Of a stretch of DNA of 64,000 bases, positions 7,101 through 30,482 are shown piece after piece (position 1 is the stretch's first letter; each line of letters opens with the position of its first letter). The notes beneath the pieces were generated by a model. The model did no database searches and was not told the origin of the DNA. It worked only from the letters and a program-made list of their open reading frames with translations. The position numbers and the translations under genes are program-made. The DNA comes from a virus, in IMG/VR virus record IMGVR_UViG_3300028007_000001, positions 1 through 64,000 of that record; one strand, given 5' to 3'.

Positions 7101-7166
7101 GATACGCAGATTCAGCGACCGCTGCGAGGTTCCGACTCGCATTCGCAATCGCCGTCACTGCGTATC
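7101..7166. repeat. Long inverted repeat with nested stem
   Basis: GATACGCAG at 7101-7109 is the exact complement of CTGCGTATC at 7158-7166; a smaller stem (GCGAG 7124-7128 with CTCGC 7136-7140) lies inside. No gene covers it. Could be a structured RNA, a protein-binding site or part of an origin; it lies upstream of the winged-helix gene. Confidence 0.4.
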
Positions 7167-7187
7167 ACCACTTACCTACCGAGAGAG

Positions 7188-7210
7188 AGCGCCCCCTTCG
7201 GGGGGGCGCT
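7188..7210 (-). terminator. GC-rich hairpin terminator
   Basis: AGCGCCCCC (7188-7196) pairs with GGGGGCGCT (7202-7210) around TTCGG, with T-rich sequence after it on the plus side and CT repeats on the minus side. It separates the secreted transglycosylase-like gene from the winged-helix gene. The 100 bases between it and 7313 contain nothing else that I can identify. Confidence 0.7.
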
Positions 7211-7312
7211 TCTCTTTCTGGAACTTTCCAGAGATCGAGGTTTACCAGATCTCCGGACTGGGTAACCATACGCCCCTCGTTTGAGCGTTGCAAGCACCCT
7301 CTCGCCGGTTTG

Positions 7313-8265: not shown

Positions 8266-8299
8266 AGAGGGGGTCCGCTCTTTCGAACGAACCCCCTCT
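8266..8299 (-). terminator. Hairpin terminator
   Basis: AGAGGGGGT (8266-8274) and ACCCCCTCT (8291-8299) form a 9-bp stem just past the stop of the Lys-rich SAP-like gene, separating it from the promoter at 8193-8222. Confidence 0.65.
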
Positions 8300-8324
8300 C
8301 GGCGGGTGGGAACCCCGGCAGGAC

Positions 8325-8936
8325 TTACTTCTTCGTCTTGGCCTTGCCCTTGGTCTTGCCTGCGCCGTTGACGAACGACTTCGGAACTGCCTGGATGAAC
8401 CCCTGAAGGCCACGGCCCTCTCGGATGATCACGAAGCCGTACTGGTCTCGCAGGGTGCTGGACGCAAGCAGGATCCGCTTGTCGTAGTCACCCAGACCGA
8501 CCGAGTTCCGGTCGTTGGCGTAGGGACGAAGTTCGACCTTTTCCGAAAGTTCCTTCGCAAGATCCTCTCGGGTGCCGCCCTTCATCAAGAGCGGTGCGAT
8601 CGTGTGGAGGTTCGACCCCTCACGGAAGGGGTTGGACTCCTTGATCTCGGCCACCTTCATCTTGACCCGCTTGGTCGCAGGCGTTGCCTTCGAAGCGGCG
8701 GGCGCCTCGGCCTTCTTCGATGCCGACTTCTTCGCAGCAGGCTTGGTGCTCTTCTGCTTCGACTTCGAAGGGGCGGTCTTCTTGGGCTTGCTGCCCTTGG
8801 TCTTCCCGCTGGTCCCGCCTCGCTCGGCACGCTTCACGGCCTTGCGAAGTTCCTCCAGCGACATGTCCTCGTATCCGGAGATCCCGAGGGACTGCGCCCG
8901 CTTCCTCAGTTCCTTGGCCTTGCTGGTCTTCGGCAT
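8325..8936 (-). CDS. Basic nucleoid-protein-like factor (SAP-like start, winged-helix-like end)
   Basis: 203 aa from the ATG at 8936, which has AAGGAGG six bases upstream and a promoter at 8963-8991. N-terminus (MPKTSKAKELRKRAQSLGI, then YEDMSLEELRKAVKRAE) looks like a SAP/HeH helix pair. Residues about 45-95 are a Lys/Ala/Pro/Ser-rich histone-H1-like tail. The C-terminal 95 residues (APLLMKGGTREDLAKELSEK to YGFVIIREGRG) look like a winged helix. The frame is open a further 75 codons upstream to 9161 without a stop, and that extension has an SH3/KOW-like look (SGDQVRYRASTGKIRKGTYL), so a longer form is possible. Confidence 0.65.
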   Translation of the reverse strand: MPKTSKAKELRKRAQSLGISGYEDMSLEELRKAVKRAERGGTSGKTKGSKPKKTAPSKSKQKSTKPAAKKSASKKAEAPAASKATPATKRVKMKVAEIKESNPFREGSNLHTIAPLLMKGGTREDLAKELSEKVELRPYANDRNSVGLGDYDKRILLASSTLRDQYGFVIIREGRGLQGFIQAVPKSFVNGAGKTKGKAKTKK

Positions 8937-8962
8937 CTGAATCCTCCTTGTGCTCTTCTTCG

Positions 8963-8991
8963 ATTGTAGGGTTTCTGATTCCGGATTGCAA
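8963..8991 (-). promoter_or_regulatory. Promoter inside the open-frame extension
   Basis: TTGCAA (8991-8986, minus) and TACAAT (8968-8963) with a 17-base spacer, placing the transcription start about 20 bases before the ATG at 8936. It supports the shorter start of that gene. Confidence 0.5.
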
Positions 8992-9153
8992 GAGATACTT
9001 TCTACTTGCGACTTCGGAACCCAGACCGGGAAGGGATCTCCTTCTAGGTGGACTAAGGCTTGGCCTTGTGCGTTCTTGTCGAGGTACGTGCCTTTGCGAA
9101 TCTTTCCGGTCGAGGCACGATAGCGCACTTGGTCTCCGGAATTGAGAATTCGC

Positions 9154-9456
9154 CTACCCATCGTTGAGTCGGCGCCTTGCTCGCTCCCGCACCGACCCCT
9201 CCTTGACTCGGTTCGGCTCGTCCTCTGCCGTCTCTCGACGGACGAGGTTCTTGTATTTCTTGATGCGCCTCTCCAACTCGGCCTCGTTGAACTCGTCCAC
9301 CAACGCAGCGGTCTTTCGGATTTCTTCTACTGAGTCCGACTTGGCGATGCGCTCATGGCCGAAGGCGAAGCGGATGAACTGGGGAGGGTCGTCAGTGACG
9401 GCCAGGGTGAGGCCCACTTCGGACCACACCCTGACCCCTTTGCGTTCAGGCGCCAT
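9154..9456 (-). CDS. Unknown protein
   Basis: 100 aa from the ATG at 9456 (GGAG at 8-base spacing; a GTG two codons earlier is possible). Beta-rich first half (GVRVWSEVGLTLAVTDD) and strongly charged helical second half rich in Arg and Glu. Overlaps the neighbouring gene by 11 bases. No family recognised. Confidence 0.55.
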   Translation of the reverse strand: MAPERKGVRVWSEVGLTLAVTDDPPQFIRFAFGHERIAKSDSVEEIRKTAALVDEFNEAELERRIKKYKNLVRRETAEDEPNRVKEGSVRERARRRLNDG

Positions 9457-9649
9457 CGACACCGCTCCGAACTGGAACAGGCAGTCGCCGGGGCGGGACG
9501 TGACACCCGGCGTCCACGTCGACCACCGTCATGCCCTCGACCGTGCCGGGCACGGCAGGAGTGCAGGCAGCAGCCAGCGAGTCGTCGTCCACCCACTCGG
9601 GGACACGCATCCGGATTCGAACCTCGACCGTCTTGTAGTCCTCAGCCAT
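9446..9649 (-). CDS. Small unknown protein
   Basis: 67 aa with a good GGAGGAAGG site before the ATG. The first 45 residues (MAEDYKTVEVRIRMRVPEW) have a beta-strand start similar to the 70-aa protein at 11923-12135, suggesting related small factors. Coupled to the helix-turn-helix gene before it by an overlapping ATGGCTGA. Confidence 0.5.
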   Translation of the reverse strand: MAEDYKTVEVRIRMRVPEWVDDDSLAAACTPAVPGTVEGMTVVDVDAGCHVPPRRLPVPVRSGVDGA

Positions 9650-9896
9650 GACCTTCCTCCGTTCGGATCTTCAACACCTGTCGTGCCTGTTCTGGCGTCC
9701 AGAGTTGGTATCCGTTGCTCGCAATCTTTGCGGCTTTGGGAATCTTACCTTGAGAAAGCCACCGCTGCATAGTCCTTTGGGAAACTCCCACGTGGCGGGC
9801 AAGTTCCGAAAGGGTGTAGTGGCCCTTCCTCTCTCTCTCCCAGAGACTTTCGTCTCGGGCGGCTCTCCGTACCTCTGGCGAACTGGGCATACCCAC
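9642..9896 (-). CDS. MerR/excisionase-type helix-turn-helix protein
   Basis: 84 aa. HYTLSELARHVGVSQRTMQR followed by WLSQGKIPKAAKIASNGYQ is the winged-helix signature of MerR/Xis/HTH_17 DNA-binding proteins, with the wing at GYQLWTPEQARQVL. Could be an excisionase-like recombination directionality factor or a small transcription regulator. No integrase is seen in the window, so a regulatory role is more conservative. Confidence 0.75.
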   Translation of the reverse strand: MGMPSSPEVRRAARDESLWERERKGHYTLSELARHVGVSQRTMQRWLSQGKIPKAAKIASNGYQLWTPEQARQVLKIRTEEGHG

Positions 9897-9906
9897 CTAC
9901 GGCTCT

Positions 9907-10125
9907 CTACTCACCAAGATCTTCCAGAGACGACGGAAGACCCTTCATCCGGCGTTCGTTCAGCAACTTGTTCACAAGCCGCATCTGGGTCTTGGTCAGA
10001 GGGAAGTCGTTCTCGTACATGTGCAGCAGTTTCTCAAGTTCCTCGGGGTCTTCCCCCTCGGCCTCAAGTTTCTTGATGGTCTGCCGCAGCCTCTCTTCGT
10101 GCGAGATCGGCTTACGGGGCTTCAC
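9907..10125 (-). CDS. Small coiled-coil protein, unknown
   Basis: 72 aa, GTG start overlapping the stop of the preceding gene. Heptad-like charged helices (RLRQTIKKLEAEGEDPEELE) predominate. No family recognised. Confidence 0.55.
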   Translation of the reverse strand: MKPRKPISHEERLRQTIKKLEAEGEDPEELEKLLHMYENDFPLTKTQMRLVNKLLNERRMKGLPSSLEDLGE

Positions 10126-10798
10126 TGGGGTCTCCGACCCACACGTCGGCCTCGGGGTTCCTGCCCTCGATCACGGCCTTGTGGAGCGGGTACAGGGACT
10201 CTCTGAACTTACGCTTGAGCGCCGCCATCCCTTGGCCCACCCTCTCGATCTCGGCCTTGTTCTCGGGCCTCCCGAGACTGGTCACGACAGCCCGCTCGAC
10301 CAACAGATCCACGTTCTTAGCGTCGATCAATTCTTTGCACGGCTGGCAGCACGCCCAGAGTTTGTCGATGTCTTGTGTGGACGCAACCAGGGTGAGACTA
10401 CGGCGCTCCAAGACCTCTCGGTTGACAGGTTCCGAAACTCCGATCTTCCACTCCGGATCCGGCAGAGCACAGAAGTCACAGACCATGCGAGGATCCGGAT
10501 TGTCTTCCGTTCGGACGGGCTTCACCGGGTGGTCGTCGTCGGATCCGGCGAACGGGTGTACCCACGTGACCGACCCGTCCCGAGAGTCCCGCACTCGGTT
10601 GATCCGGTAGCCGCAAACCTCGCAGTCGAAAAGCGGAGGGGCAGCCTGGTACGAGAACTCAGCCACCATCATCCTTCCCTGCCGGACGATGGGCAGCCCG
10701 AGACCTGCCGTGACTTTCTGAAACTCGTCGTTTGAGCGGGCTACGTGAACTCCGTTGTCGCTCAGGATCTTGCTCAGTTCTTCGGGTGTCATTCCCAT
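10112..10798 (-). CDS. Zinc-ribbon protein, unknown
   Basis: 228 aa. Three Cys pairs are visible: CEVCGYRINR near residue 60, CDFCALPDPEWKI near 108 and ACCQPCKELIDAK near 150, followed by a helix with DLLVERAVVTS. The CDFCxxPDPxW arrangement is one I associate with a recurring actinobacterial and actinophage family of unknown role. A nucleic-acid-binding or protein-binding zinc function is plausible. Confidence 0.6.
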   Translation of the reverse strand: MGMTPEELSKILSDNGVHVARSNDEFQKVTAGLGLPIVRQGRMMVAEFSYQAAPPLFDCEVCGYRINRVRDSRDGSVTWVHPFAGSDDDHPVKPVRTEDNPDPRMVCDFCALPDPEWKIGVSEPVNREVLERRSLTLVASTQDIDKLWACCQPCKELIDAKNVDLLVERAVVTSLGRPENKAEIERVGQGMAALKRKFRESLYPLHKAVIEGRNPEADVWVGDPSEAP

Positions 10799-10808
10799 AG
10801 GTACGTAC

Positions 10809-11735
10809 CTACCTGTTCCATCGGAACACTCGGTCCTTCACGATCAGAGGACGATCTGCCGGACCCTTGACTCCGGGCTTGACCCACGTCACGTGGAATC
10901 CTTCGGGGTGGCACTTGCAGTGCCGCTTACCCCAGTGTCCTCGCTGAATCCATCGGTGGCTCCACGCAACCTCTCGGCCTTCAGAAACGCCTTCGTCATT
11001 GCGAGGGGCGTACTCACGTGCCCGCAAGGAGATCACTCGCACTTCCTGCTGGCGGTAGAGATAGCCCGTCCTGTCGAGACGCTTCCGGGTTGGGCGGTCG
11101 AGACGGCGTGGTTCGTTGTTGGGCAACTTCTGCTGCACGAACCGCCAGAACGCTCGGACGGTCTTGGTCATGCCGCCCACGTTCTCAACCGCAGGAGGCT
11201 CGACTCCGAAAGGCACATGAACGTGGTGCCAGAGAAGAAGTTTCGGAAGATGGCGGCGGTTGTCCTCTGAGATATTCCGAAGACCCTCGTCGTCCTGGTC
11301 GTCTCGCCAGGAGTAGAACGTGATCTGGACGCCGGGCACTTCCTTCAGCCCCGCCATCATGCGAGCGTGAGACCACGCAAACGCTCGGGTGCCGATCTGC
11401 TCTTCACGAAGATCGGTCGTGAAGAAAGACTTGTCGAGCCACACGAACCCTGACGGGGTGGGAAGGTCGATCTCTTGCAGGGCAGAGGTTGGGAAACTTT
11501 CTGCCGCATGAACCATCAAGTCCACCATGTCAGCGTGGACCCAGTAGGTCTCTGCCCGGTCGATGCGGAGAGCCTCGTTCTGAGCGAGGAATTGGGCATC
11601 CCACTCGGGTCCAAAACTGGTATCCCCAGTCTTGTCGAGAGAGCGCAGGTATCCGTTGGCGTAGGAGACGCCTCGGGGCGACATCCAGTACCGGATCAGA
11701 TCAACCTGCTCTTCCAGGACTTGGAGGGAGTTCAT
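10809..11735 (-). CDS. Unknown Trp/Arg-rich protein of actinobacterial mobile-element type
   Basis: 308 aa from the ATG at 11735, which overlaps the upstream stop; the frame stays open to 11966 but that part is a shadow of two other genes. The C-terminal 80 residues (EVAWSHRWIQRGHWGKRHCK, HVTWVKPGVKGPADRPLIV, VFRWNR) resemble a domain I associate with actinobacterial plasmid and phage proteins of unknown activity. The middle has FAWSHARMMAGLKEVPGVQI and LLLWHHVHVPFG. No catalytic motif is certain. Confidence 0.55.
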   Translation of the reverse strand: MNSLQVLEEQVDLIRYWMSPRGVSYANGYLRSLDKTGDTSFGPEWDAQFLAQNEALRIDRAETYWVHADMVDLMVHAAESFPTSALQEIDLPTPSGFVWLDKSFFTTDLREEQIGTRAFAWSHARMMAGLKEVPGVQITFYSWRDDQDDEGLRNISEDNRRHLPKLLLWHHVHVPFGVEPPAVENVGGMTKTVRAFWRFVQQKLPNNEPRRLDRPTRKRLDRTGYLYRQQEVRVISLRAREYAPRNDEGVSEGREVAWSHRWIQRGHWGKRHCKCHPEGFHVTWVKPGVKGPADRPLIVKDRVFRWNR

Positions 11736-11926
11736 TCGGAATTCCTCGACTCGTAACTGCTGAGGTACGACCTGATCTCGGTGAGCGTGTTGAACCACGT
11801 CGCCCACTCGCCGTCCCGCTCGACGTTGTACCCACCCTCGGGATCTACGAGAATCCGAAAGGTAGCGCCGGTGGCGATCGACTGATACACGTACCCGTCG
11901 TCGGACTTTCGGAGAACGATGGTCAT
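11732..11926 (-). CDS. Small unknown protein
   Basis: 64 aa, ATG with AGGAAG. Beta-rich (MTIVLRKSDDGYVYQS, FRILVDPEGGYNVERDG) then an amphipathic helix. Overlaps neighbours by 4 bases at its end and start, indicating tight coupling. Confidence 0.55.
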   Translation of the reverse strand: MTIVLRKSDDGYVYQSIATGATFRILVDPEGGYNVERDGEWATWFNTLTEIRSYLSSYESRNSE

Positions 11927-12135
11927 GCCTGCTTCCTCCGTCGTGATACGGCGCCGCCGTCCACATCGGATTCCACGACTTCGTACGTGGATTCGCCGTC
12001 AGCGCCTAGTCCGTCGAGATCGAAGTCGAGCGACTCCAACTGCTCCTGGATTCTTTCGGAAATCTCGTCGTTGCTGGCGAACTTCCCCTCGACCCGCTCG
12101 ACCTGAAGGGTGATGGTGAACTGGAACTCGGCCAT
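11923..12135 (-). CDS. Small unknown protein
   Basis: 70 aa from the ATG at 12135, overlapping the previous stop as TGATG. MAEFQFTITLQVERVEGKF is beta-rich and resembles the start of the protein at 9446-9649. Acidic centre, basic tail (SRRRKQA). Confidence 0.55.
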   Translation of the reverse strand: MAEFQFTITLQVERVEGKFASNDEISERIQEQLESLDFDLDGLGADGESTYEVVESDVDGGAVSRRRKQA

Positions 12136-12560
12136 CACTCACCGCCCCACCCGATGCGGATGTAGGGAGACGACGTGGTGACGAAGGCACACTGAGCGAC
12201 CACCTTCGGGTCGATGTTGCCTGCGGCAACTTCCGCCGCCAACTTGTCCTTGTCCACGTCTTCCTTGCGGATTCGCTTCCACTGAGCGGCGGTGAGAGCG
12301 TCCTTCAACTGCTCGGGGTCGTAGTTGACGTACTCGTTCTCGACCACGGTGATTCGGATCTCGTCGTCGCCGCCCTGAATGGTCGTGACCTTCCGGGCCT
12401 TCAACTGCTCAACGAGGGTGGCCTGGACTTCCTTCTTCTTGGCCTCCCAGCGGGCAGCCTTCTTTCGGAAGTCTTCGAACTCACGGCCGAGTTCGAAGAG
12501 GACTCGCTCGGGCAGACGCTTGACGCCCTTCTTCTTCTTGGACTTGGACTTCGCAGGCAT
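12135..12560 (-). CDS. Unknown Lys-rich protein, first gene of an operon
   Basis: 141 aa. Basic start (MPAKSKSKKKKGVKRLPER), a long helix (RKKAARWEAKKKEVQATLVE) and a beta part (TIQGGDDEIRITVVENEYV). It resembles phage proteins of unknown role seen near recombination genes, but I cannot name a family. It has the AAGGGGGTAC leader before the ATG and lies directly downstream of the promoter at 12590-12618. Confidence 0.6.
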   Translation of the reverse strand: MPAKSKSKKKKGVKRLPERVLFELGREFEDFRKKAARWEAKKKEVQATLVEQLKARKVTTIQGGDDEIRITVVENEYVNYDPEQLKDALTAAQWKRIRKEDVDKDKLAAEVAAGNIDPKVVAQCAFVTTSSPYIRIGWGGE

Positions 12561-12589
12561 GTGTACCCCCTTGGGAATGTTCTGGTTGA

Positions 12590-12618
12590 ATGGTAGCAGA
12601 AAGTTTCTGCTGTGTCAA
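12590..12618 (-). promoter_or_regulatory. Promoter with CAGAAASTTTCTG operator
   Basis: Minus strand: TTGACA (12618-12613), 17-base spacer, TACCAT (12595-12590). The spacer holds the 15-base odd palindrome GCAGAAAGTTTCTGC (12596-12610). A repressor bound there would block RNA polymerase. Drives the genes from 12560 leftward. Confidence 0.8.
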
Positions 12619-12628
12619 CCTTGGATCT

Positions 12629-12746
12629 CCGGGCCGGTGCGGCGGTCCACACTCGACCCCCACCGAGGTCGTCCCGTCCTCTGGCGGTCCAATGGAGGGC
12701 CAGACGGAGAGGCGTTCCCCCGTCCAGGGCCAGGGCACCGGCCCGG
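12629..12746 (-). ncRNA. Candidate structured RNA closed by a 12-bp stem
   Basis: CCGGGCCGGTGC (12629-12640) is the exact complement of GCACCGGCCCGG (12735-12746), enclosing 94 bases that can form two smaller stems and carry a direct repeat of GGACCGCC (minus strand). No believable gene overlaps it. It lies just downstream (minus sense) of a tRNA-like gene and another long hairpin, so all three may derive from one transcript. Identity unknown. Confidence 0.4.
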
Positions 12747-12770
12747 AGAGAACTTTCGGATTTTGGGCCT

Positions 12771-12821
12771 GGGGGTAAGCCGTCGCCTGCCGCCACGGTG
12801 TGATCAGGACGGCTTACCCCC
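12771..12821 (-). terminator. Long hairpin downstream of the tRNA-like gene
   Basis: 14-bp perfect inverted repeat (GGGGGTAAGCCGTC at 12771-12784 and its complement at 12808-12821) with a 23-base loop; AAAATCC follows on the minus strand. Probable terminator or processing signal for the tRNA-like transcript. Confidence 0.6.
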
Positions 12822-12828
12822 GGCCCAG

Positions 12829-12897
12829 TGGAGGCAGAGGGAATCGAACCCTCGGGTCGTGCGGTTTTAGGTGCCGCTAACCCCACCATGTGCCCCC
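12829..12897 (-). tRNA. tRNA-like gene, apparent anticodon CUA
   Basis: Minus strand, 69 bases. Acceptor GGGGGCA pairs with TGCCTCC (one G-T), discriminator A, no encoded CCA. The T arm is canonical: GAGGG, loop TTCGATT, CCCTC. The anticodon arm is GCGGC, loop ACCTAAA, ACCGC, putting CTA in the anticodon place with C instead of U at position 33 and a C-A closing mismatch. The D region is only 13 bases, too short for a normal D arm. It may be an atypical or degenerate tRNA; if charged it would read UAG codons. Confidence 0.45.
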
Positions 12898-12902
12898 AAG
12901 CG

Positions 12903-13319
12903 TCAGGTCTGCTGACGCTCTCGTACTACCTCCCGAAGACCCTTGAGTACGTCGATCTGCTGAGAGATGGCGTACGCCTGGATCGTGTAGGAGTCGATGT
13001 GCTTACCGGCGTTTCCTTGGTTCTCTCCGAGTGCGCTCAGAACGTTTCCTTCGGGGTTGGTCAGAGCAAACTGGAGCCGCTCACGAATGCTCGTTGCTGT
13101 TCTAACCGCCCCGTTGCACTCTCGGATGGCCTGATTGAGAGCAGAACGCCGCTCGCTCTCAAGCGACTCGATCAGGCGGGTCAGCAGAACGTCCATGTCT
13201 GGCCCCTTGGTGGGGTCGTCCAGAGCATCTCGCTCTCTCAGCAGTCGCTCGACCTTCTGTTGGATCCCGGTCTTTCGGGGTGCCGTCGCCCTTCCGGCCC
13301 TCGGCGTTCTTGTCGGCAT
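12903..13319 (-). CDS. Unknown helical protein
   Basis: 138 aa from the ATG at 13319, overlapping the previous stop. Basic start (MPTRTPRAGRATAPRKTGI) followed by long helices (VERLLRERDALDD, LIESLESERRSALNQAI, AYAISQQIDVLKGLREVVRE) that suggest a coiled-coil or helical bundle. No family recognised. Confidence 0.55.
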   Translation of the reverse strand: MPTRTPRAGRATAPRKTGIQQKVERLLRERDALDDPTKGPDMDVLLTRLIESLESERRSALNQAIRECNGAVRTATSIRERLQFALTNPEGNVLSALGENQGNAGKHIDSYTIQAYAISQQIDVLKGLREVVRERQQT

Positions 13320-13321
13320 GG

Positions 13322-13600
13322 TCAGTCCCCCCACCTGAAGCCCTCACGAAACTTTCGGATTTCCTCTTCGCTGAGGTTGTGATCTCCGGGGCACGACTTG
13401 CTGTGAACAAGCCCCACCGTCAGGTCTTCGAACGGCTCGGTCGAAGCCTCGGCCCAGTCGACAGACCAAACGTGGTCTCCCCACATGAACCGGCGCCTCC
13501 ATGAGATCGTCGGAAGAACCTGCCTCACGAACCCGACGCCCGCCCAGAACCCCAGGGCGAAGACGAATGCGAACGGAGCGATCAACCACAGGTCTGTCAT
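13322..13600 (-). CDS. Small membrane-anchored protein
   Basis: 92 aa; the ATG overlaps the helicase stop (GCATGA). Residues 5-28 (WLIAPFAFVFALGFWAGVGF) are one transmembrane helix, followed by a cytosolic-looking domain with HVWSVDWAEASTEPFEDLTV. No family recognised. A long open frame continuing upstream is a shadow of the helicase. Confidence 0.6.
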   Translation of the reverse strand: MTDLWLIAPFAFVFALGFWAGVGFVRQVLPTISWRRRFMWGDHVWSVDWAEASTEPFEDLTVGLVHSKSCPGDHNLSEEEIRKFREGFRWGD

Positions 13601-15390
13601 GCCGCCTCTCCTTCTTCCTCGGCGCTGCTCCACGATCCGTCGAGCAGACTCCGAATGTCCTTCATCGTGATCTTCGGAACCTGACGCCCGCCATCCCGCT
13701 CGACCATCCGGTCGAAGATGGCCTGCTTCTTCTTGAGCAGTGCAGCGATCCGCTCTTCCACCGACCCACGCACACGGATCTCGATCACGTGAACCGTGTC
13801 CGTCTTGGAGTCCATGCCTCGGAGTCCACCCGCCGCCGACCGGCCTACTGCCTGGTCGTGTGCGGCGGGAGTCCAGAGCATGTCGGTGAAGATCACATAG
13901 GTTGCTACGCCCAGGTTCACCGCTTCTTGGTTGGCTTGGATGGTCCCGATGTAGACGTGGCAGTCCTCGTCCTTGTTGAACCTTCGGATTTCGGCCTGCC
14001 TCTTCTTCAAGTCCTTCTCTTCGCCCGTCACGTAGGCCGGGTTGTAGTCCTGCAACTCCCGACGAAGGATCTGGGCGGCGCTCGACCACTGGGTGAAGAT
14101 GATGGCCTTCTCCCCGTTCGCTACCAGTTCCTCCACGATCTCCTTGACGACCGGAATCTTTGGACTTACAGGCTTACCGTCGTAGAGTTCCGGGGAGAAG
14201 CACGCCTGCTTGAGCCTGGTGAGCCAAGGCAGGATCCCAGCGATACCCCGGACCTCTCCGTTTTCCAGTTCCAGCAGAGCCTCTTCCTCGATCTTCCGGT
14301 ACAACTTCGCAGACTCCGGGGTGTGGTCGACGTGACGAACCGACCACACGGCTTTCGGAAACCGCTTCTTGAGTTCCTTCTGCACATGCTCCTTGCGACG
14401 GCGCAGCGAGATCGAGTTCAGGAATTCCTTGAGTTCGGCCATCGCTCCGACCTTGTACGCAACCACCGTCCGGTGCGGACCCTCTCGGATGGCGATGGAG
14501 TTCACGAACGGCTCGTACTCCGGGAACAACTTCGGGTAGAGCCGGTGCAGGACGGGCCAGATCTCTTCCGGCCTGTTCATAATCGGCGTCCCCGACATGT
14601 GGAGTTCGTGACTGGCCTGGATCTGGATGAAGCCCCGAGTGACCTGAGCCGTGGGGTTCTTTGCCTTGTGATGCTCGTCCGAGATGAAGAGATCCCACTC
14701 TTCATCGAAGACGGCAGGGTTCGTGTACGACCAGTCCACGATCTTGCGCCGGTCGTAGATCGGCTTCGCCCGAATGCCTTCCCAGTTGATGATGGTGATC
14801 CTGCTCTTGTTCCGGATGCGAGCGTCCCGAGTGGCAGCGTCTCCCTCGACCACCGTGTAGGAAAGTTTCGGAAAGAACTCGTCAAGAACTTCTGCCCACG
14901 TCCACTTGGCGTTGTTCGGGCAGACGACGAGAACTCGCTTCTTGCGAGCGAGGCAGATGTAGGCAAGAGCAACGAACGTCTTGCCCAGACCCATCTCGTC
15001 GTTCAGGAGTTGGATCTTCTGGTCGAAGATCAACTTGAGAGCCTGTCGCTGGAACCGCAGCAGCGTCCCGATGAACTTCGGGATCGAGAACTGCGGCGCC
15101 GGTAGACGACGCAGACGCTCCCGCTCGACCGCCACCAGTTTCTTCAGGATCCCACGTGAGAGTTCGGCCTGCGGGAAGGCAAGGCACAGCCGGTCGAGGT
15201 ACCGAAGGTTGAACCGGAAGTAGATCTTGGAAGACCCTCGCACGTCTTCACGGACAGGACGTGCCTTCCGTTCCAGGATCTCGTTGTAGATCACGTCCTG
15301 GATCACGTACGGGTCTTCGTCCTTCCGGTCACAGATCAAGACCAGATGGCGACCCCTGGGATCTCCCTTCTTGCTGAGGCTGATCTTCAC
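13597..15390 (-). CDS. SNF2-family DNA helicase/translocase
   Basis: 597 aa, GTG start. Superfamily 2 motifs in order: Walker A in NDEMGLGKTFVAL (131-138), ISDEHHKAKN (motif II DEHH, 238-241), MSGTPIMN (266-269), IIFTQWSSAAQILRREL (motif IV region), YIGTIQANQEAVNLG (V) and HDQAVGRSAAGG (VI, in place of the common QxxGRxxRxGQ). Such enzymes move on duplex DNA; in phages they serve in replication, recombination or displacing bound proteins. Ends in an acidic tail coupled to the membrane-protein gene. Confidence 0.88.
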   Translation of the reverse strand: MKISLSKKGDPRGRHLVLICDRKDEDPYVIQDVIYNEILERKARPVREDVRGSSKIYFRFNLRYLDRLCLAFPQAELSRGILKKLVAVERERLRRLPAPQFSIPKFIGTLLRFQRQALKLIFDQKIQLLNDEMGLGKTFVALAYICLARKKRVLVVCPNNAKWTWAEVLDEFFPKLSYTVVEGDAATRDARIRNKSRITIINWEGIRAKPIYDRRKIVDWSYTNPAVFDEEWDLFISDEHHKAKNPTAQVTRGFIQIQASHELHMSGTPIMNRPEEIWPVLHRLYPKLFPEYEPFVNSIAIREGPHRTVVAYKVGAMAELKEFLNSISLRRRKEHVQKELKKRFPKAVWSVRHVDHTPESAKLYRKIEEEALLELENGEVRGIAGILPWLTRLKQACFSPELYDGKPVSPKIPVVKEIVEELVANGEKAIIFTQWSSAAQILRRELQDYNPAYVTGEEKDLKKRQAEIRRFNKDEDCHVYIGTIQANQEAVNLGVATYVIFTDMLWTPAAHDQAVGRSAAGGLRGMDSKTDTVHVIEIRVRGSVEERIAALLKKKQAIFDRMVERDGGRQVPKITMKDIRSLLDGSWSSAEEEGEAA

Positions 15391-16452: not shown

Positions 16453-16896
16453 TCAGATGTGATGATCCTCTAGCCAGTTGCCCGACACGATCCTCGGGCC
16501 GTCTGGCTCGTACAGGTAGTGGAATCCGAAAGCCTCCCTCTCGGACCCATCGGGCATCTGCACCATGATCTTCCGCAGTTCGTACCCAGCGCCCTCTTCC
16601 ATCCTGATCACGCTGTCGGTCACAGGGTGGTCGGCGTGCATGATCAGAAGGTCTCCGATGATCACGCCGGGGCGATCGAACTTCGCCACAGGGTACGCAC
16701 GCATGTAGGGCCGGACGTGGTAGAGGCTTCCGACTGCCTGAACATTCGGAATCTCGTCCAGCACTGCTTCTTTGGCCCAGGAGTAGTTGCCCTCTCCGAC
16801 TCGGAGAGTGCCATACGCCAGCAAGGGGAGCCGATGGCCCCCCTCGCCAGCGATGGCGTTCCACTCCCTCACAAGGTCGTGAGTGGAGATCGTCAC
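16453..16896 (-). CDS. Gamma-glutamylcyclotransferase-like (AIG2 family)
   Basis: 147 aa, GTG start overlapping the upstream stop. LPLLAYGTLRVGEGNYSWA near residue 24 is the YGxLRxGxxN substrate-loop signature of the GGCT/AIG2 fold; GSLYHVRPYMRAYPVAKFD and GDLLIMHADHPVTDSVIRM, with the catalytic-type Glu in RMEEGAGYELRKIMV, follow in the family order. Members release 5-oxoproline from gamma-glutamyl amines or peptides. Being in the same arm as the amidoligase and glutamine amidotransferase suggests a shared gamma-glutamyl or isopeptide chemistry, which is inference. Confidence 0.75.
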   Translation of the reverse strand: MTISTHDLVREWNAIAGEGGHRLPLLAYGTLRVGEGNYSWAKEAVLDEIPNVQAVGSLYHVRPYMRAYPVAKFDRPGVIIGDLLIMHADHPVTDSVIRMEEGAGYELRKIMVQMPDGSEREAFGFHYLYEPDGPRIVSGNWLEDHHI

Positions 16897-17825
16897 ACGA
16901 CCTCCCGAACTCCCGCCGCCCGAAGAGCGGCGATCAGGTCCGGCTTCCGCATGGAGTAGCCACCCGAAACGATCCCTCGGCTGAGCCGACGAAGTTCCGT
17001 GATCCCCATGCTGTCGAGCGTGACGTTCACGGTCGGAGGACCGTCGACCGGCACCGGCTGGTCGGGAGCAGGCTCCACGATTCCGGTCCCCGAGATCGTG
17101 TCGACGTACTCCACGCCGTCTTCGACAGCGGGGTAGGCAGCATCGGCCTCGACCGTCTGGTCTTCTGTCGGGTCGCCGCCCCCGATCTCGACCATCTCGT
17201 CGTCGTCCTGCTCAGAGTCGTCCAGACCGTCCTCAGCCTCGATCAGATCGCTCACCGTCACTTCGCCCGACTCCACAGCAGCGATCATGTCGATGGAGAA
17301 GTTCGGGACTGCGATGGCCTGGTACCAGAAGCCGTCCTCGATCGCCAGACCGAGACTGACCATCTTCTGCCACGTCTCGGTCGTGAACGTGTCCTTGGGG
17401 CTGACGGCTGGGGTGAGCAGACGCTTCCGAGCCATCTTTCGGAAAGTGACAGGACGGATCTGGTAGAAGAGCGAGTACGCCCACTTCATGGCGTCATACT
17501 CCCCGACCGAGTTCCGACCGCACTGCACCATGTGGTATCGGAATGCCTGGAAGAGATGCAGGAGGAATCGAGAGCGATCCCCCACGACGATCTCGGCCTG
17601 ATCCTCGTCGGAGTAGGCGGGAGACCAATCCCACGCCGTGTACGCCCCGCCGATGCGAACGACCGGCGCCGGGATCCCGTACGCCTTGGCCGCAACGTCA
17701 CAGAACTCCTGACCCGCAACCTCTCGGTCTGCCGGGTCCATCCTGGACGGCTGAGAATCGGCCAGAGTACGAGCGGCCTCGACAACTGACTCTCGGATGT
17801 TTCGGAATGCGAGATGGAGCCGCAC
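16893..17825 (-). CDS. Unknown protein with SAP-like C-terminus
   Basis: 310 aa, GTG start with AAGGAG. Residues 40-110 (EFCDVAAKAYGIPAPVVRI, AEIVVGDRSRFLLHLFQAF) look like a metallopeptidase-type fold of the SprT kind, but the expected HExxH is replaced by HLFQAFRYH, so it may be inactive. An acidic linker (about 200-265) leads to a C-terminal helix pair (MGITELRRLSRGIVSGGYS, DLIAALRAAGV) resembling SAP/HeH. First gene after the promoter at 17865. Confidence 0.55.
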   Translation of the reverse strand: MRLHLAFRNIRESVVEAARTLADSQPSRMDPADREVAGQEFCDVAAKAYGIPAPVVRIGGAYTAWDWSPAYSDEDQAEIVVGDRSRFLLHLFQAFRYHMVQCGRNSVGEYDAMKWAYSLFYQIRPVTFRKMARKRLLTPAVSPKDTFTTETWQKMVSLGLAIEDGFWYQAIAVPNFSIDMIAAVESGEVTVSDLIEAEDGLDDSEQDDDEMVEIGGGDPTEDQTVEADAAYPAVEDGVEYVDTISGTGIVEPAPDQPVPVDGPPTVNVTLDSMGITELRRLSRGIVSGGYSMRKPDLIAALRAAGVREVV

Positions 17826-17864: not shown

Positions 17865-17893
17865 AGGATACCAGAAAGTTTCTGGTATGTCAA
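17865..17893 (-). promoter_or_regulatory. Promoter with CCAGAAAGTTTCTGG operator
   Basis: Minus strand: TTGACA (17893-17888), 17-base spacer, TATCCT (17870-17865). The 15-base perfect odd palindrome CCAGAAAGTTTCTGG fills 17871-17885. Confidence 0.85.
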
Positions 17894-17901: not shown

Positions 17902-17936
17902 CTGGAAGGGGACTAGCCGAGTGTGTCCCCTTCCAG
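17902..17936 (-). terminator. Hairpin terminator after the first amidotransferase
   Basis: 12-bp perfect stem: CTGGAAGGGGAC (17902-17913) and its complement (17925-17936), 11-base loop, then ATTTCCTC on the minus strand. It overlaps the last bases of the amidotransferase gene and isolates that operon from the next promoter. Confidence 0.75.
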
Positions 17937-19013
17937 AGAGGCAATGAAGTCCTCGTATTCCTCCCGAGTAACGAGCATGTCTCCGATCCACATCATGTCT
18001 CCGCTGCTGTTTCCGTTCTGCTGAGCGGAAGAGCGTCGGTCTCGGATGCGGATGCCAGAACCGAGTTCGCCGTTCCGGGCTGCCTTGGCGGCACGCTGCC
18101 CGTAGTAGGCGCCCATCGTCAGGCTTACGTCCTTCGGAGTTTCGGAATCCTTCTTGCTCTTAGATCTGGGCTTGGGCTTCGGCTCTGCCTTGGAGACAGG
18201 AGTGCGATCGCCCATGATCAGTTGACGCTCCAAGACCTCCGAAGGAGTCATTACCGGGTAACCCCTCGACTCGTACTCGAAATCCCAGGCCGGGATTTTG
18301 GACGTTCTCACCTTCGGTCGGAATCGGTAGCGATTCAGGATCCTCCCTTCTTTCACGACCAAGAGGCGGTTTTCCGAAACAACAGACACTGATTCGAACT
18401 CGATCTCGGGCTGCAAGTTCTCCAACGCCCGAGGGTTCGAAGCGAACAGAAGGTTTCCTCTCTTCGTCCACCCGAGCGTGATCTGCCTGCCGTACGTTCT
18501 GGCGATGTGCAGAACGGCGGGGTTCGTGAGCCGGGTGTAGATGGTAACCATCGACCCGTAGACCTTGCTCAACCCGCCAGTCGGACCCCACCTGTTGACG
18601 GCAGCGAAGATGGCCTCGCTGTCCACTTCGGTCTTCGGGTCGAACCGGCCTGTCTTCGCCAGGATCTCTTCGTGGTTGGAGATCACGCCGTTGTGAACGC
18701 CCACGATGTTCTGGTGAACGATCGGGTGGTTGTTCAGCATGTTCTGGGGAGAGCCGTGAGTGGCCCACCGAGTGTGGCCCACGACCCAACGAGGGTTCGT
18801 CTCAACCCCGGTGATCACGTTGTCGATCGCCTGGTCGGTGTCGGCTCGACCCCGGTGCTTTTCCACCGTCACGCCCTTGTCGGGCACGTACTGCATCCAC
18901 CCGTAGGCGTGCGGGCCTTGGGCAACCGAGTCGATGAACATGAGAGCCATGATCTCGTACGTCGGAATGTCTTCCGGCTCGCCGCCGTAGCAGATCCCTA
19001 GAAGTCGACACAT
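17913..19013 (-). CDS. Class II glutamine amidotransferase (copy A)
   Basis: 366 aa. An N-terminal nucleophile glutaminase: Cys2 after the initiator Met (MCRLLGICYG), GHTRWATHG at 79-87, NNHP at 94-97, VHNGVISN at 106-113 and DSEAIF at 131-136, all in the purF/asnB/glmS-type order. It hydrolyses glutamine and releases ammonia for a partner. Beyond residue 230 it has no synthetase or isomerase domain, only a Lys/Pro/Ser-rich tail, so ammonia must be handed to another protein, most simply the amidoligase read just before it. The copy at 30483-31304 shares all these motifs but has a shorter tail. Confidence 0.88.
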   Translation of the reverse strand: MCRLLGICYGGEPEDIPTYEIMALMFIDSVAQGPHAYGWMQYVPDKGVTVEKHRGRADTDQAIDNVITGVETNPRWVVGHTRWATHGSPQNMLNNHPIVHQNIVGVHNGVISNHEEILAKTGRFDPKTEVDSEAIFAAVNRWGPTGGLSKVYGSMVTIYTRLTNPAVLHIARTYGRQITLGWTKRGNLLFASNPRALENLQPEIEFESVSVVSENRLLVVKEGRILNRYRFRPKVRTSKIPAWDFEYESRGYPVMTPSEVLERQLIMGDRTPVSKAEPKPKPRSKSKKDSETPKDVSLTMGAYYGQRAAKAARNGELGSGIRIRDRRSSAQQNGNSSGDMMWIGDMLVTREEYEDFIASLEGDTLG

Positions 19014-19032
19014 CTTTCGGATTCACCCCCTC

Positions 19033-19965
19033 TCAGAATGAGAACTGTGGAACGGAGCATCGCCAGCACACCTTCCTCAACAACTTCCAGTCCTCTTCGG
19101 ACATGAGGATCTCGGTGTCCTGAACGTTTCCGTTTGGACCCCTCTTCTTGCTCTCCGTTCGGAGGATCTGCTGCAAGCGGAGGAAGACCGCCTTTTCGGA
19201 AACTGTACCCGCCCGCATGGAACCGAGCGGGTAGGAATTGGCAATCTTTCGGTAGTGGCCTCGCCGTGCGTCCTCCACGATGGCTACGCACAGAGCGATG
19301 TACGCCTGCACACGATCAGGGTTCACCGACGAGTTGAAATAGCGGAACTCGATAGTGCCCCGGAAGAAGTACGAGTGGAGGTTGAGAGCCAGGTATCGAG
19401 AGACGCCGGGCTGGAAGACCCTCACGCCGTCTCGCATGTCGTGCCCACCCTCCCACAACGAGAGGATGTCTGCCTCCGATTCGGCTGCTGCTGCCCTCTC
19501 GACAAGCCCCCGAGGAAGAGGCTGGGCGTACTGCCTTGCTCCGGGACGGATTGTTTCCCATCCTGAAGAGGCAATGCGGTAGAGAGCGTCTTCGAACTTG
19601 TAGCAGAACCGCACGACCGACCCGAGTTGCCTCCCGGTGAAGTTCGTGCCGTTCTCGTTGCGAGCCTCCACGTGTACGTGGATACCGGCCGAGGCATGAG
19701 GACGGGCGCCTGCGTTCTGCAACGCAAGGACAGCCGTCGTCACTTGATCTCGGTGGTCTGGGTGGTCGAAGAGTAGAGGCGGCGAGACCAGTTCTCCGCC
19801 ACCCTCCACCGACCCGTCTCGCTTGACAGTCCAAGACGGAACGGAGGCTCCTGAGTCGTGACTGTGCGTGTGGTCGATCGTCTCCAGACCTGCGGCCCGG
19901 AGTGAAGCGATAACAGCGGAGAGATCACCTTGGAACTCGATCTCGACGCCGAAACGTCTCGGCAT
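19033..19965 (-). CDS. Amidoligase (glutamine-synthetase/GCS-like fold), copy A
   Basis: 310 aa, ATG after AAGGGGTAC. Hallmarks of the Amidoligase_2 family: FGVEIEF at 5-11, WTVKRDGSVEGGGELVSPP around 45-63, ASAGIHVHVE at 91-100 and FRGTIEFRYFN at 201-211, supplying the Glu and His ligands for two Mg-ATP sites. Such enzymes join a carboxylate to an amine with ATP, as in gamma-glutamyl ligases. Only 19 bases separate it from the glutamine amidotransferase, so they form a two-gene unit under the promoter at 20006. Substrate unknown. Copy B (29555-30412) is clearly homologous. Confidence 0.88.
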   Translation of the reverse strand: MPRRFGVEIEFQGDLSAVIASLRAAGLETIDHTHSHDSGASVPSWTVKRDGSVEGGGELVSPPLLFDHPDHRDQVTTAVLALQNAGARPHASAGIHVHVEARNENGTNFTGRQLGSVVRFCYKFEDALYRIASSGWETIRPGARQYAQPLPRGLVERAAAAESEADILSLWEGGHDMRDGVRVFQPGVSRYLALNLHSYFFRGTIEFRYFNSSVNPDRVQAYIALCVAIVEDARRGHYRKIANSYPLGSMRAGTVSEKAVFLRLQQILRTESKKRGPNGNVQDTEILMSEEDWKLLRKVCWRCSVPQFSF

Positions 19966-20005: not shown

Positions 20006-20034
20006 AGAATAGCAGAAACTTTCGGGTTTGTCAA
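20006..20034 (-). promoter_or_regulatory. Leftward promoter of the central divergent pair
   Basis: Minus strand: TTGACA (20034-20029), 17-base spacer, TATTCT (20011-20006). The spacer has the half-diverged operator GCAGAAACTTTCGGG, which merges the operator half site with the dispersed TTTCGG motif. Drives amidoligase copy A. Confidence 0.85.
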
Positions 20035-27526: not shown

Positions 27527-27790
27527 ATGTACGGATGCAGATACTCAGACAACGACAGAGTGATGGAGCAACTGCGATCGACGGGGTATTCCGAACTGAC
27601 CATACCCTTCTATCGTTTCTCCAAAGAGAGTGATGCCGTCAATGCCGCTCGCCAACGGGCCTATCGGTTGGCAAAGAAGATCGGGGTACGAGTTACGACA
27701 GCAGCAGGGTGGCATGTTTTGTACGTCTCGGTGCTGGACTCGAAACTACCCTCGCTAGCATCGAGGAAGCGTTCACGTCCTGACTCGTAG
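27527..27790 (+). CDS. Small basic protein, unknown
   Basis: 87 aa after a GGGGTAG leader. YSELTIPFYRFSKESDAVNA and ARQRAYRLAKKIGVRVTTA suggest a small alpha/beta fold. Last gene before a 640-base gene-free stretch. Confidence 0.5.
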   Translation: MYGCRYSDNDRVMEQLRSTGYSELTIPFYRFSKESDAVNAARQRAYRLAKKIGVRVTTAAGWHVLYVSVLDSKLPSLASRKRSRPDS

Positions 27791-28428
27791 TACCGAATCC
27801 AACGTCAATAGATCCCCAAGTCAAACGAATTCAGAAAGATCGAGGGGTACAACACACCTACTATCTACATACCTACTCAGTACCGAGCGCCACGTCCCCG
27901 CATTCGCACCAGTTTCGAATCGCCAAATCCCGATACGCCATATCTATTCCCTCTTTCGGAAACTTCCATCCCATATCCGTGTCGTAGGTTTTGGTTCCGT
28001 TTCCCCTGGTCATGCCTTCCTCTCCCATTGCCGCCCCCATCCTCCGGTGGAGTAGAGAACCTCCATGCGTAGAGGAAAGAATGCATAGGTATGTATAGGA
28101 ATGTTGGGAATGTTCGGAAGCGTAGGGGATCTCGGGTAGAGGTACTGGGTAGTAGGGGGAAACCCCTCGTAGATTCGGAAAGATCACATACGTAGGTACA
28201 TATGGTTTCCGGAATTCGGATATCCGTGAGGCGTAGGCGTAGCCCCCGGATTCGGGGATTCGGATATGCGTAGTGCGTAGGCGTAGGTGGGATCTCCGAA
28301 AGCCCGAAGCGTAGAGCGCCCCCTCCTTTCCGAAAATCCGAATTCGGATACGGCCCGGCCTCGGTCAGCGATATCCGAATTCGGATATAGGGAGGGGGTT
28401 GCACGGTATCCGAAAGCCCGATTGCCCA
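27791..28428. repeat. Gene-free stretch rich in short degenerate repeats
   Basis: No convincing gene on either strand; the long minus-strand open frames here have poor starts and odd composition. The stretch holds GCGTAGGCGTAG (28229-28240 and again near 28278), TATAGGTATG-like runs, and palindromes of the TCCGAATTCGGATA type near 28337 and 28368. It ends in the promoter at 28429. Probably regulatory or architectural DNA. Confidence 0.55.
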
Positions 28429-28458
28429 TTGACAACCTTTCCCATAGTCTGCTATGGT
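28429..28458 (+). promoter_or_regulatory. Promoter with CCATAG-N4-CTATGG operator
   Basis: TTGACA (28429-28434), 18-base spacer, TATGGT (28453-28458). CCATAG TCTG CTATGG (28442-28457) is a perfect 6-bp inverted repeat covering the -10 box. Confidence 0.8.
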
Positions 28459-28486
28459 AATGTTGCCATCGAGGAAGGGGTACGAC

Positions 28487-28708
28487 ATGCAAATCGCTGA
28501 GATTCAGGCCCAAGTGGAGATCGACCAACGTCACCATCCGGCTCCCCACGTTCCCTCTGGTCGTGTGATCGAGGTCGCCTGTCAGGGTGAGTACGTGATT
28601 GTCCGCACCAGAGGCACCACTCTCCTTCTCACCCCCAGCCAGGCCCGAGAGTTCGCTCGGGCACTCCGAAAGGCAGAACGCCAGGTTCGGAATGGAGAAA
28701 CGGCTTGA
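28487..28708 (+). CDS. Small unknown protein
   Basis: 73 aa, ATG after GGAAGGGGTACGAC. Beta-rich centre (GRVIEVACQGEYVIVRTRG) and a basic C-terminal helix (SQAREFARALRKAERQVRNG). Its last codons contain the -35 box of the next promoter. No family recognised. Confidence 0.6.
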   Translation: MQIAEIQAQVEIDQRHHPAPHVPSGRVIEVACQGEYVIVRTRGTTLLLTPSQAREFARALRKAERQVRNGETA

Positions 28709-28733
28709 CAAACTTTCCATAGTGTGCTATGGT
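28705..28733 (+). promoter_or_regulatory. Promoter with CCATAG-N4-CTATGG operator
   Basis: TTGACA (28705-28710), 17-base spacer, TATGGT (28728-28733). CCATAG TGTG CTATGG at 28717-28732 repeats the palindrome of the promoter 280 bases upstream, and AAACTTT follows the -35 box. Confidence 0.85.
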
Positions 28734-28764
28734 GAGTGAGTCAGCCAAACACAAGGGGTACGTC

Positions 28765-29136
28765 ATGCAGACATTCGAAGAGCGCATGGTGGAGGCACTG
28801 GAAAGCGGGGCACTGAAGCCCAGCCAGGTCGGCCTCACGGAGATCGAAGTCCGGTACTACGCCGATCCCACGGCTGAGGTACCCGAGGACAAGGAAGAGA
28901 ACACGTGCGATCTCGTCGCCGTCACCTACACGGACGACGGCAAGCGCACGGCGCCGCACTGCGACAACGCCTACACCGACGACAAGAGCGACACGATCGA
29001 AGGTGTCGGCGGGGAGTACGCAACCACCGGAGATCGACGGGAGACCTTCTCCTACATCTCCGACGACAAGGACTTGGTAGCCCGAGTGGCAGCGATTCTG
29101 GACGGCCCAGCAATCAGCGCCATCATCGGGCAGTAG
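28765..29136 (+). CDS. Acidic unknown protein
   Basis: 123 aa, ATG after AAGGGGTACGTC. Very acidic in the middle (EVPEDKEENTCDLVAVTYTD, DDKSDTIEGVGGEYATTGD). Single-gene operon with its own promoter and terminator, typical of an immediate-early host-takeover protein or DNA mimic; this is inference only. Confidence 0.6.
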   Translation: MQTFEERMVEALESGALKPSQVGLTEIEVRYYADPTAEVPEDKEENTCDLVAVTYTDDGKRTAPHCDNAYTDDKSDTIEGVGGEYATTGDRRETFSYISDDKDLVARVAAILDGPAISAIIGQ

Positions 29137-29159
29137 GACTGGCGTACCCCAACCCAGTA

Positions 29160-29197
29160 GGGAATCCCCCGGTTTTCGGATCGGGGGATTCCCTTTT
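29160..29197 (+). terminator. Rho-independent terminator
   Basis: 12-bp perfect stem GGGAATCCCCCG (29160-29171) with CGGGGGATTCCC (29182-29193), 10-base loop and TTTT immediately after. The clearest terminator in the window. Confidence 0.9.
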
Positions 29198-29486
29198 GCG
29201 TAGCAACGTATGGGAATTCGGAGTTTCGGAAATCGTAGGCGTAGCAGCGTAGCACCCCGGAAATCCGAAGGTCCGAAGCGTAGGTGTGGCCGGTCTCCGA
29301 GGATCCGAAACTCCGGCCTTGTGCATGTGATCACATTCACAAACTTTCCCCATACGTGCATACGTATGCAGGTTTCCGAATATCCGAATTCGGATATCGG
29401 CGGGCGCCGATCGGGCGAGTCCGAATTTCCGAAACTCCGGGCGCACGTGTGACTTTCGTCACATCGGGCAGAAAGTTTCCGAATTC
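29198..29486. repeat. Gene-free stretch with palindromes before amidoligase copy B
   Basis: No gene. Contains GCGTAG repeats near 29231-29250, an AAACTTTCCCC site near 29340, and TTTCCGAATATCCGAATTCGGATATC near 29372-29395 (split here: TTTCCGAATATCC then GAATTCGGATATC). A TTTCCGAATATCCGAA relative recurs beyond the far end of the cassette at about 31412. Confidence 0.5.
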
Positions 29487-29507
29487 CATAGGAACCTATG
29501 CTACGAT
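29487..29507 (+). promoter_or_regulatory. Possible promoter/operator of amidoligase copy B
   Basis: CATAGG AA CCTATG (29487-29500), a perfect palindrome, followed by TACGAT (29502-29507) as a -10 candidate. No good -35 box is seen, so activation by a factor bound to the palindrome is possible. Upstream is GAAAGTTTCC, the AAASTTT core. Confidence 0.45.
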
Positions 29508-29554
29508 GGCGCCGCAGGCGCCGAACGGCGGCGCCCAAGCGATAGGGGTACGCA

Positions 29555-30412
29555 ATGGCACGCACGATCGGTATGGAAATTGAGACCGGATGCGATGACT
29601 GGGCGCCCGTTGTCGGTGGCATCCGTTCTCGTGGCGTCTACCTGGAAACGACCGACAACTACGCCACTGGCGAACGGGTCGACCAGTGGACGGCAAAGCC
29701 TGACGGGTCGGTCGATGGGATGGAAATCGTTTCTCCACCCTTCGAATTCGCTTCGCCATTCTGGCGTGACGAACTCCGGAAGGTTTGCGAAGGCGCCCGC
29801 TCGGGCGGCGCCCGCCCGCACTCTTCGGCCGGTATCCATGTCCACGTGGACGTCTCCGACCTTCCCGCCCGGAACGTGGCGAGTATCGTCAAGTTCGTCC
29901 ACAAGTTCGAAGACTTCCTGTACCGGATCGCTTCGGCAGGATGGCAAACGATCCGATCGGGCGCCGCTACCTACGCCAAGCCGATTCACCCGAACCTCGC
30001 CCATGCCATGTACCGGGTACGTTCGGCGGGCGACCTTGAGCGGGCATGGTCGGGCGTCGACCGATACCACGCCGTGAACCTTCACTCGTACTTCTTCCGG
30101 GGAACGGTGGAGTTTCGGATTTTCAACTCATCGTTGAATCCGGATCGCATCGCATCCTTCGTGGCGTTGTGTCACGGCATCGTTGAGGATGCAACTCGCC
30201 ACTCCCGTTCGCTTTCGTCCGTCTATCCGGTCGGAGGAATGGCGTCCGGTGCTACGGACGAACGGGCGCTACTGCTTCGTCTCCAACAAATCCTCACATG
30301 CTATGACCGCGACACTTCGGCGCCCATGCTTCACGCTGACTGGCAAACCCTCCGCCGCACGTGCTGGCAAGAGTCTCGCCCGCAGGTCGCCGAATCACTC
30401 GCCCGGTGGTAA
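29555..30412 (+). CDS. Amidoligase, copy B
   Basis: 285 aa, ATG after ATAGGGGTACGCA. Same family as copy A: IGMEIE at 5-10, WTAKPDGSVDGMEIVSPP at 45-62, SSAGIHVHVD at 90-99 and FRGTVEFRIFN at 181-191, with long shared segments such as NLHSYFFRGT and VNPDR/LNPDR. ATP-dependent carboxylate-amine ligase of unknown substrate. Read 70 bases before its own glutamine amidotransferase. Local sequence is richer in GGGCGCC-type words than surrounding genes, hinting at separate acquisition. Confidence 0.87.
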   Translation: MARTIGMEIETGCDDWAPVVGGIRSRGVYLETTDNYATGERVDQWTAKPDGSVDGMEIVSPPFEFASPFWRDELRKVCEGARSGGARPHSSAGIHVHVDVSDLPARNVASIVKFVHKFEDFLYRIASAGWQTIRSGAATYAKPIHPNLAHAMYRVRSAGDLERAWSGVDRYHAVNLHSYFFRGTVEFRIFNSSLNPDRIASFVALCHGIVEDATRHSRSLSSVYPVGGMASGATDERALLLRLQQILTCYDRDTSAPMLHADWQTLRRTCWQESRPQVAESLARW

Positions 30413-30482
30413 CGGGCGCACAACTCCCCGGCGCCCGTCATACGGGCGGGCGCCCATCCTTCGAACAGAAAGGTTTCTGACA

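Follow-up and report, generated by a model that had tools for sequence, protein, structure and literature searches.

Genes for an amidoligase and a class II glutaminase are commonly found side by side in phages, and this pairing is already known: cassettes of this kind are carried by hundreds of phages. They have been described as a phage 'peptidoglycan-modification' cassette, a prediction made by Iyer 2009 and Hardies 2013 and relayed in the later papers on which our account of it draws (PMC5498523, PMC10580990, PMC11945000). According to the same papers, the wider cassette may change the side chains of peptidoglycan, so that superinfection is stopped or lysis is tuned. In a planctomycete phage the cassette genes were assigned to nitrogen metabolism, a function inferred from growth without an enzyme assay (PMC10945688), and protein-tagging roles have been proposed for related phage ligases, the R2K ATP-grasp enzymes (PMC4431377). 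Doubled amidoligases are also known in other elements; prophage LM41phi13, for example, is listed with two amidoligase ORFs and a gamma-glutamyl cyclotransferase (GGCT) (PMC11318856). No biochemical test or proven substrate of any phage cassette member was found in the literature. The earlier note on this DNA held that the pairing had no defined function in a phage, a statement at odds with the fact that the cassette is recognised and its function predicted in print, and with glutaminase relatives in hundreds of phage records.

Gene content of the two modules

The window analysed here is the first 64,000 bases (1-64000) of an uncultured virus record that is 81,346 bases long. Module A consists of four genes that run leftward on the minus strand from 19965 to 16453. 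The first gene of this leftward block encodes amidoligase A (19033-19965; 310 aa), a GS-like enzyme of family PF12224, and is followed by the gene for class II glutaminase A (17913-19013; 366 aa), a GATase_6 protein whose C-terminus is extended by about 130 aa. Next come a cassette-associated protein that we call X (16893-17825; GTG start), homologues of which adjoin the cassette elsewhere, and an AIG2-like GGCT (16453-16896; PF06094, E=2.3e-8, above the cut-off). Other genes on this strand include those for an SNF2 helicase, DnaB, dCTP deaminase and primase. Module B lies on the plus strand and is made up of amidoligase B (29555-30412; 285 aa), likewise GS-like and of PF12224, and class II glutaminase B (30483-31304; 273 aa), a GATase_6 protein that starts MCRLF. 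A start for glutaminase B at 30183 was rejected, since the frame there only runs on upstream of the gene; the Cys2 typical of class II enzymes follows the start codon at 30483 (MCRLF).

The combination taken as the mark of the cassette, an amidoligase, a class II glutaminase and GGCT in one gene run, is present in module A, and module B is without GGCT. The entire 81-kb record has a single GGCT and a single X; both belong to module A and are absent from module B, so the two modules are not equivalent. The earlier note had correctly described the core pair of module A and the same gene order, amidoligase then glutaminase, in both modules, but it overlooked the X and GGCT genes.

A promoter-like site that matches the consensus (20006-20034, minus strand; TTGACA-17-TATTCT, with TG before the second hexamer) lies about 40 bases 5' of the first codon of amidoligase A, and a second consensus match is located between the glutaminase A and X genes (17865-17893, minus strand). 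Promoter-like sites in the region numbered 10, where 4.3 were expected by chance, and those beside module A are only suggestive. A terminator-like hairpin 3' of module B (31334-31353, plus strand) is a weak feature, such sites being equally frequent in shuffles.

Enzyme families, conserved residues and predicted fold

All four proteins score above the Pfam gathering cut-offs, which bears out the claim that the phage has two intact amidoligase and class II glutaminase pairs. The amidoligases match Amidoligase_2 (PF12224) with E=3.8e-27 for A and E=7.6e-22 for B (96 and 79 bits against a cut-off of 22), the glutaminases match GATase_6 with E=1e-15 for A and E=9.9e-19 for B, and the PHROG assignments are 'amidoligase enzyme' and 'glutamine amidotransferase'. 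Copies A and B are 44% identical in the amidoligase and 40% identical over 231 aa in the glutaminase, a likeness that is not due to chance, and they occupy separate loci; they are therefore diverged and differently placed, as had been noted.

The motifs reported earlier are present as described and coincide with columns that are invariant among 17 amidoligases and 10 glutaminases. For the amidoligases, A and B included, these columns are G6, E8, E10, W45, S52, E58, H96, H98, N195, E206 and R208, and both copies keep the active-site set of two strand-1 acidic residues, the Glu of E-V-S-P, HxH and ExR. Loss of ATP-site ligands had been named as grounds for abandoning the proposed function, and neither copy has lost any. 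Invariant columns of the glutaminases include C2, H80, R82, T85, G87, N94, H96, P97, H107-N108-G109 and D131, so Cys2, the catalytic Arg (R82), Asn-Gly (N108-G109) and Asp (D131) are kept in both. In Pfam searches, the C-terminal sugar isomerase domains of GlmS were absent from glutaminases A and B, which have the glutaminase domain only, and ordinary amino-sugar synthesis is thus an unlikely function for either.

The top Foldseek matches of the amidoligase A model were Dop, the predicted glutathione synthase 1tt4 and glutamine synthetases (E 4e-5 to 1e-3), and PafA was also among the matches. This model is of moderate quality (pLDDT 67, pTM 0.71) and its TM-scores are low, yet it points to a GS-like fold for amidoligase A, the one copy modelled. 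The conserved ligands and the predicted fold support the earlier proposal of ATP-dependent amide-bond chemistry fed by ammonia from glutamine.

Composition, repeats and phylogeny of module B

Module B sits in a compositional island of 1.95 kb (29403-31351). The hexamer GGCGCC occurs 18 times in the island (9.2/kb) versus 69 in the remaining 79.4 kb of the record (0.87/kb), an excess with a nominal Poisson P=4e-13 for bounds that were fixed post hoc. The top tetranucleotide outlier windows fall in the island as well, and the neighbouring repeat-rich 27-29 kb region is also atypical; the codon usage of module B is only mildly low. Most of the segment from 27790 to 29550 is non-coding, and it is rich in repeats (GGCGTAG and TTCGGA), compositionally odd, and has two strong promoter-like sites 5' of small ORFs. 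Minus-strand genes placed over 28184-29622 by an automatic gene call were rejected; they have negative codon scores, and one overlaps amidoligase B.

An identical 17-mer, GTTTCCGAATATCCGAA, flanks the island at 29372 and 31411. In the left bracket (29372-29395, plus strand) it overlaps the palindrome ATCCGAATTCGGAT (29382), and in the right bracket (31374-31427, plus strand) the palindrome, at 31374-31387, precedes the 17-mer at 31411-31427. The palindrome core TCCGAATTCGGA has eight copies, at 8231, 21565, 22717, 28336, 28373, 29382 and 31374 of the window and at 66995 of the record; several of these are intergenic and two bracket module B. The palindrome could serve as an operator or in recombination, and since its core is found at six other sites in the record, it may be an operator and not the end of a mobile element.

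In the concatenated tree, the branch of module B is about 2.4 times as long as that of module A (0.98 vs 0.40). The GlmS-like glutaminases of two loci from our scans, L022 and L024 (about 600 aa, probably whole GlmS), were left out of the later trees. We rejected the view that B is established as a duplicate of A, for the two were sister groups in a sparse tree and, with related contigs added, the data fit either order. The AU test accepts B as sister to A (p=0.58) and also accepts B outside A and its relatives L026 and L027 (p=0.60). Duplication is therefore not separable from import. The phylogeny of both copies that had been proposed at the outset shows the longer branch of B and does not separate the two topologies. 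The distinct composition of module B and its missing GGCT point first to a core module that probably arrived later or was duplicated.

Relatives of the two modules

Three IMG/VR contigs, L026 (3300036402_000045), L027 (3300015195_000005) and L028 (3300012984_000016), are much closer to the window phage than the remaining loci of our scans. As in module A, L026 and L027 have the amidoligase, glutaminase, X and GGCT genes upstream of an SNF2 helicase gene, and they share further neighbourhood genes with the window phage; L028 has amidoligase, glutaminase and X in the same order, near the end of the contig. Their amidoligases are 53, 42 and 47% identical to amidoligase A and 39, 35 and 38% identical to amidoligase B, respectively. 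Unlike the window phage, each of these records, which may be incomplete, has exactly one amidoligase and one glutaminase. Judged from the sequences, module A is the resident copy and module B is the extra one.

Beyond these contigs, an IMG/VR scan with the glutaminase alignment alone gave 80 loci, 78 of which also encode an amidoligase. GGCT was present in 28 of the 80 within the stretches fetched, many of which are incomplete, and some loci are near-duplicates. No relative came from IMG/VR when the query was amidoligase B by itself or an alignment of A and B, and the sole match in one GTDB scan was a locus in a deltaproteobacterial MAG. Relatives of glutaminase B were found in 279 of 50,697 phage records, at 281 places, and both surplus places belong to one 124-kb record with three. 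That record, PQ859842.1 (Pseudomonas phage CP-p-PA-21011), carries a PaP3-like cassette and is probably a threefold concatemer of a genome of roughly 41 kb; at the sensitivity of this search, it is therefore rare for one phage to have two such glutaminases. Another possible doubling is L069 (IMG/VR 3300028364_000014, 238 kb), in which two glutaminase ORFs (E 4e-40 and 2e-35) lie within 8277-13952 near one weak amidoligase match.

The phage itself appears to belong to a poorly sampled lineage. Immediately ahead of the portal gene, where a large terminase would be expected, a gene (38286-40019) encodes a 577-aa protein that had no Pfam, PHROG or phage-record match, and the major head protein had matches in only 7 phage records.

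Protein X is associated with the cassette

Protein X matched no Pfam or PHROG family. Its homologues in the three closest contigs adjoin the cassette (L026, 11465-12391; L027, 11362-12312; L028, 2493-3335), and a first profile built from these and the window protein found X in two further loci, L042 (8114-8587) and L044 (2749-3258), with E-values of about 2e-17 and 3e-17. One further round added a match in L007 (6203-6688; E=1.5e-4), and no other ORF scored E<1 in the roughly 100 loci searched. All of the homologues found by profile are within 1.7 kb of a glutaminase; the loci had been selected by the cassette, so this demonstrates adjacency and not exclusivity. Homology to Wheelbite gp91, Ottawa gp63 or the Alcaligenes phage protein adjoining its amidoligase was not detected.

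The conserved core of X is WAxSxFYxxxPxxFR. By eye its C-terminus is SAP/Rho_N-like, which is a lead only, and one X relative has a weak Rho_N match. Folded alone, X gave a meaningless model (pLDDT 41). As far as our searches extend, X is a new and undescribed cassette-associated family, and it provides a new handle on the cassette.

Discussion

What reaction might the two modules carry out? Ammonia release by class II glutaminases depends on Cys2, and ligases of the GS fold use ATP to activate a carboxylate. The Dop, glutathione synthase and glutamine synthetase families make or break amides of the gamma-carboxyl of glutamate, and the GGCT family attacks gamma-glutamyl groups. The fold matches of amidoligase A, together with the GGCT gene in its operon, suggest that the cassette builds and edits gamma-glutamyl-type amides. 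Activity in vivo, the partnership of the enzymes, their target and their time of action are inferred. The glutaminase would free ammonia from glutamine, the amidoligase would turn a carboxylate, most likely of the gamma-glutamyl type, into an acyl phosphate, and the activated carboxylate would then be joined to that ammonia or to another amine. The GGCT of module A may cleave or recycle gamma-glutamyl products. That the proteins belong to these families and perform glutamine-fed ligase chemistry is a part of the reading that we hold with considerable confidence. The amidoligase and GGCT genes of Geobacillus GR1, Bacillus 031MP004 and a Blautia phage locus, where no glutaminase was detected, suggest that the glutaminase is not always needed and that ammonia may not be the sole amine.

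Among possible targets the leading candidate is the peptidoglycan of the host, whose stem peptide may be modified so as to hinder superinfection or tune lysis. The choice of peptidoglycan is based on the published prediction and is a tentative one, distinctly possible and short of probable. Counting against it, RimK ATP-grasp and COOH-NH2 ligase, two of the enzymes on which the published pathway is based, were not detected; these long-form enzymes (PF08443 and PF14395) had no match in the whole record, and PF14395 was detected in PaP3, Vp_R1 and QDWS535. Module B is an extra, faster-evolving core pair, acquired through duplication or imported from a related phage; it probably forms the same class of bond, with a changed substrate or with different timing. 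A role for module B distinct from that of A is rather doubtful. Taken as a whole, the reading of glutamine-fed ATP amidoligases, with A as a resident four-gene cassette acting on the stem peptide and B as an extra core copy, falls a little short of an even chance.

It is also conceivable, if somewhat unlikely, that the functions are split, in that module A keeps the GGCT-linked reaction, the fast-evolving module B, having no GGCT, amidates or ligates a different acceptor, and X is an unrecognised partner or targeting protein. In that event, one phage would run two distinct amide modifications.

An alternative is that the cassette acts on free gamma-glutamyl compounds or other small metabolites, in nitrogen or glutathione-like metabolism or in making a signalling or toxic product, and that GGCT turns the product over. 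GGCT acts on free gamma-glutamyl compounds, amidoligase A resembles the predicted glutathione synthase 1tt4 in its fold, and the planctomycete phage genes were assigned to nitrogen metabolism. However, that assignment came from growth and not from an enzyme assay, the cassettes occur for the most part in phages, and amidoligase and glutaminase often lack an accompanying GGCT, as in module B and in many loci that are incomplete. On balance, we regard a metabolite target as unlikely, while taking it seriously.

Less can be said for the idea that the amidoligase, like the Pup ligase and Dop, amidates or tags Glu or Asp side chains of host or phage proteins. Dop entries are the best structural matches, with PafA listed too, and the tagging roles proposed for R2K ATP-grasp ligases offer a parallel, but the Dop matches span only the shared GS-like core at about 10-12% identity and TM 0.33-0.35. 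Moreover, free ammonia supplied by a glutaminase fits amidation better than tagging, which leaves a protein target quite improbable.

It is similarly improbable that module B is a passenger: copied or imported, and either on its way to being lost or doing nothing that A does not do. The island composition, the bracket repeats, the longer branch and the lack of GGCT and X are what such a passenger might show, as is the single copy in the three related contigs. Against this, both frames are open and all catalytic residues are kept. Module B also retains 64/82 and 53/69 of the positions that are invariant among A-type enzymes, some of which an equally diverged but inert copy would be expected to lose, and B is thus arguably functional.

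Modification of phage DNA bases against restriction, through an amide-bearing base, is very improbable: some 7-deazaguanine DNA pathways use class II glutaminase domains and the phage has dCTP deaminase and ThyX genes, but these two are ordinary phage nucleotide genes, GGCT has no evident part in base modification, and QueC, sought as the mark of a Gat-QueC 7-deazaguanine pathway, gave no hit with E<=1 in the complete record, with positive controls in 14/14 genomes.

Comparison with known systems

The arrangement of module A has clear counterparts. In the Arthrobacter phage Wheelbite (Laroyevirus), gp92-gp94 likewise bring GGCT, amidoligase and class II glutaminase together, and the glutaminase is 34-35% identical to A and B. 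Unlike the window phage, Wheelbite has one module, its order is GGCT-amidoligase-glutaminase, and it has no detectable X. In LUZ24-like and related phages (PaP3, UFV-P2, Vp_R1), as in module A, the amidoligase is directly followed by the class II glutaminase with GGCT in the same run, whereas the long cassette of these phages adds COOH-NH2 ligase and RimK ATP-grasp and has longer glutaminases.

More than one amidoligase along with GGCT in a single mobile element is seen in L007 (IMG/VR 3300037882_004258), in L021, the linear Streptomyces plasmid NZ_CP109456, and in prophage LM41phi13. L007 has two closely related, divergently oriented amidoligases within 2130-7502, together with one glutaminase, X and GGCT, and three related amidoligase genes cluster within 689-7494 of the plasmid, with GGCT nearby. 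In contrast to the window phage, the copies in these elements are close together and accompanied by at most one glutaminase (L007), and in the tree the amidoligase expansions of L007 and L021 are separate from the A/B pair. A full conserved cassette together with a diverged core-only copy allows modules that have GGCT and X, and that lack them, to be compared within one phage, which may help in finding the substrate. As far as the searches made here extend, a single phage with two amidoligase-glutaminase pairs that lie apart and differ in make-up is new.
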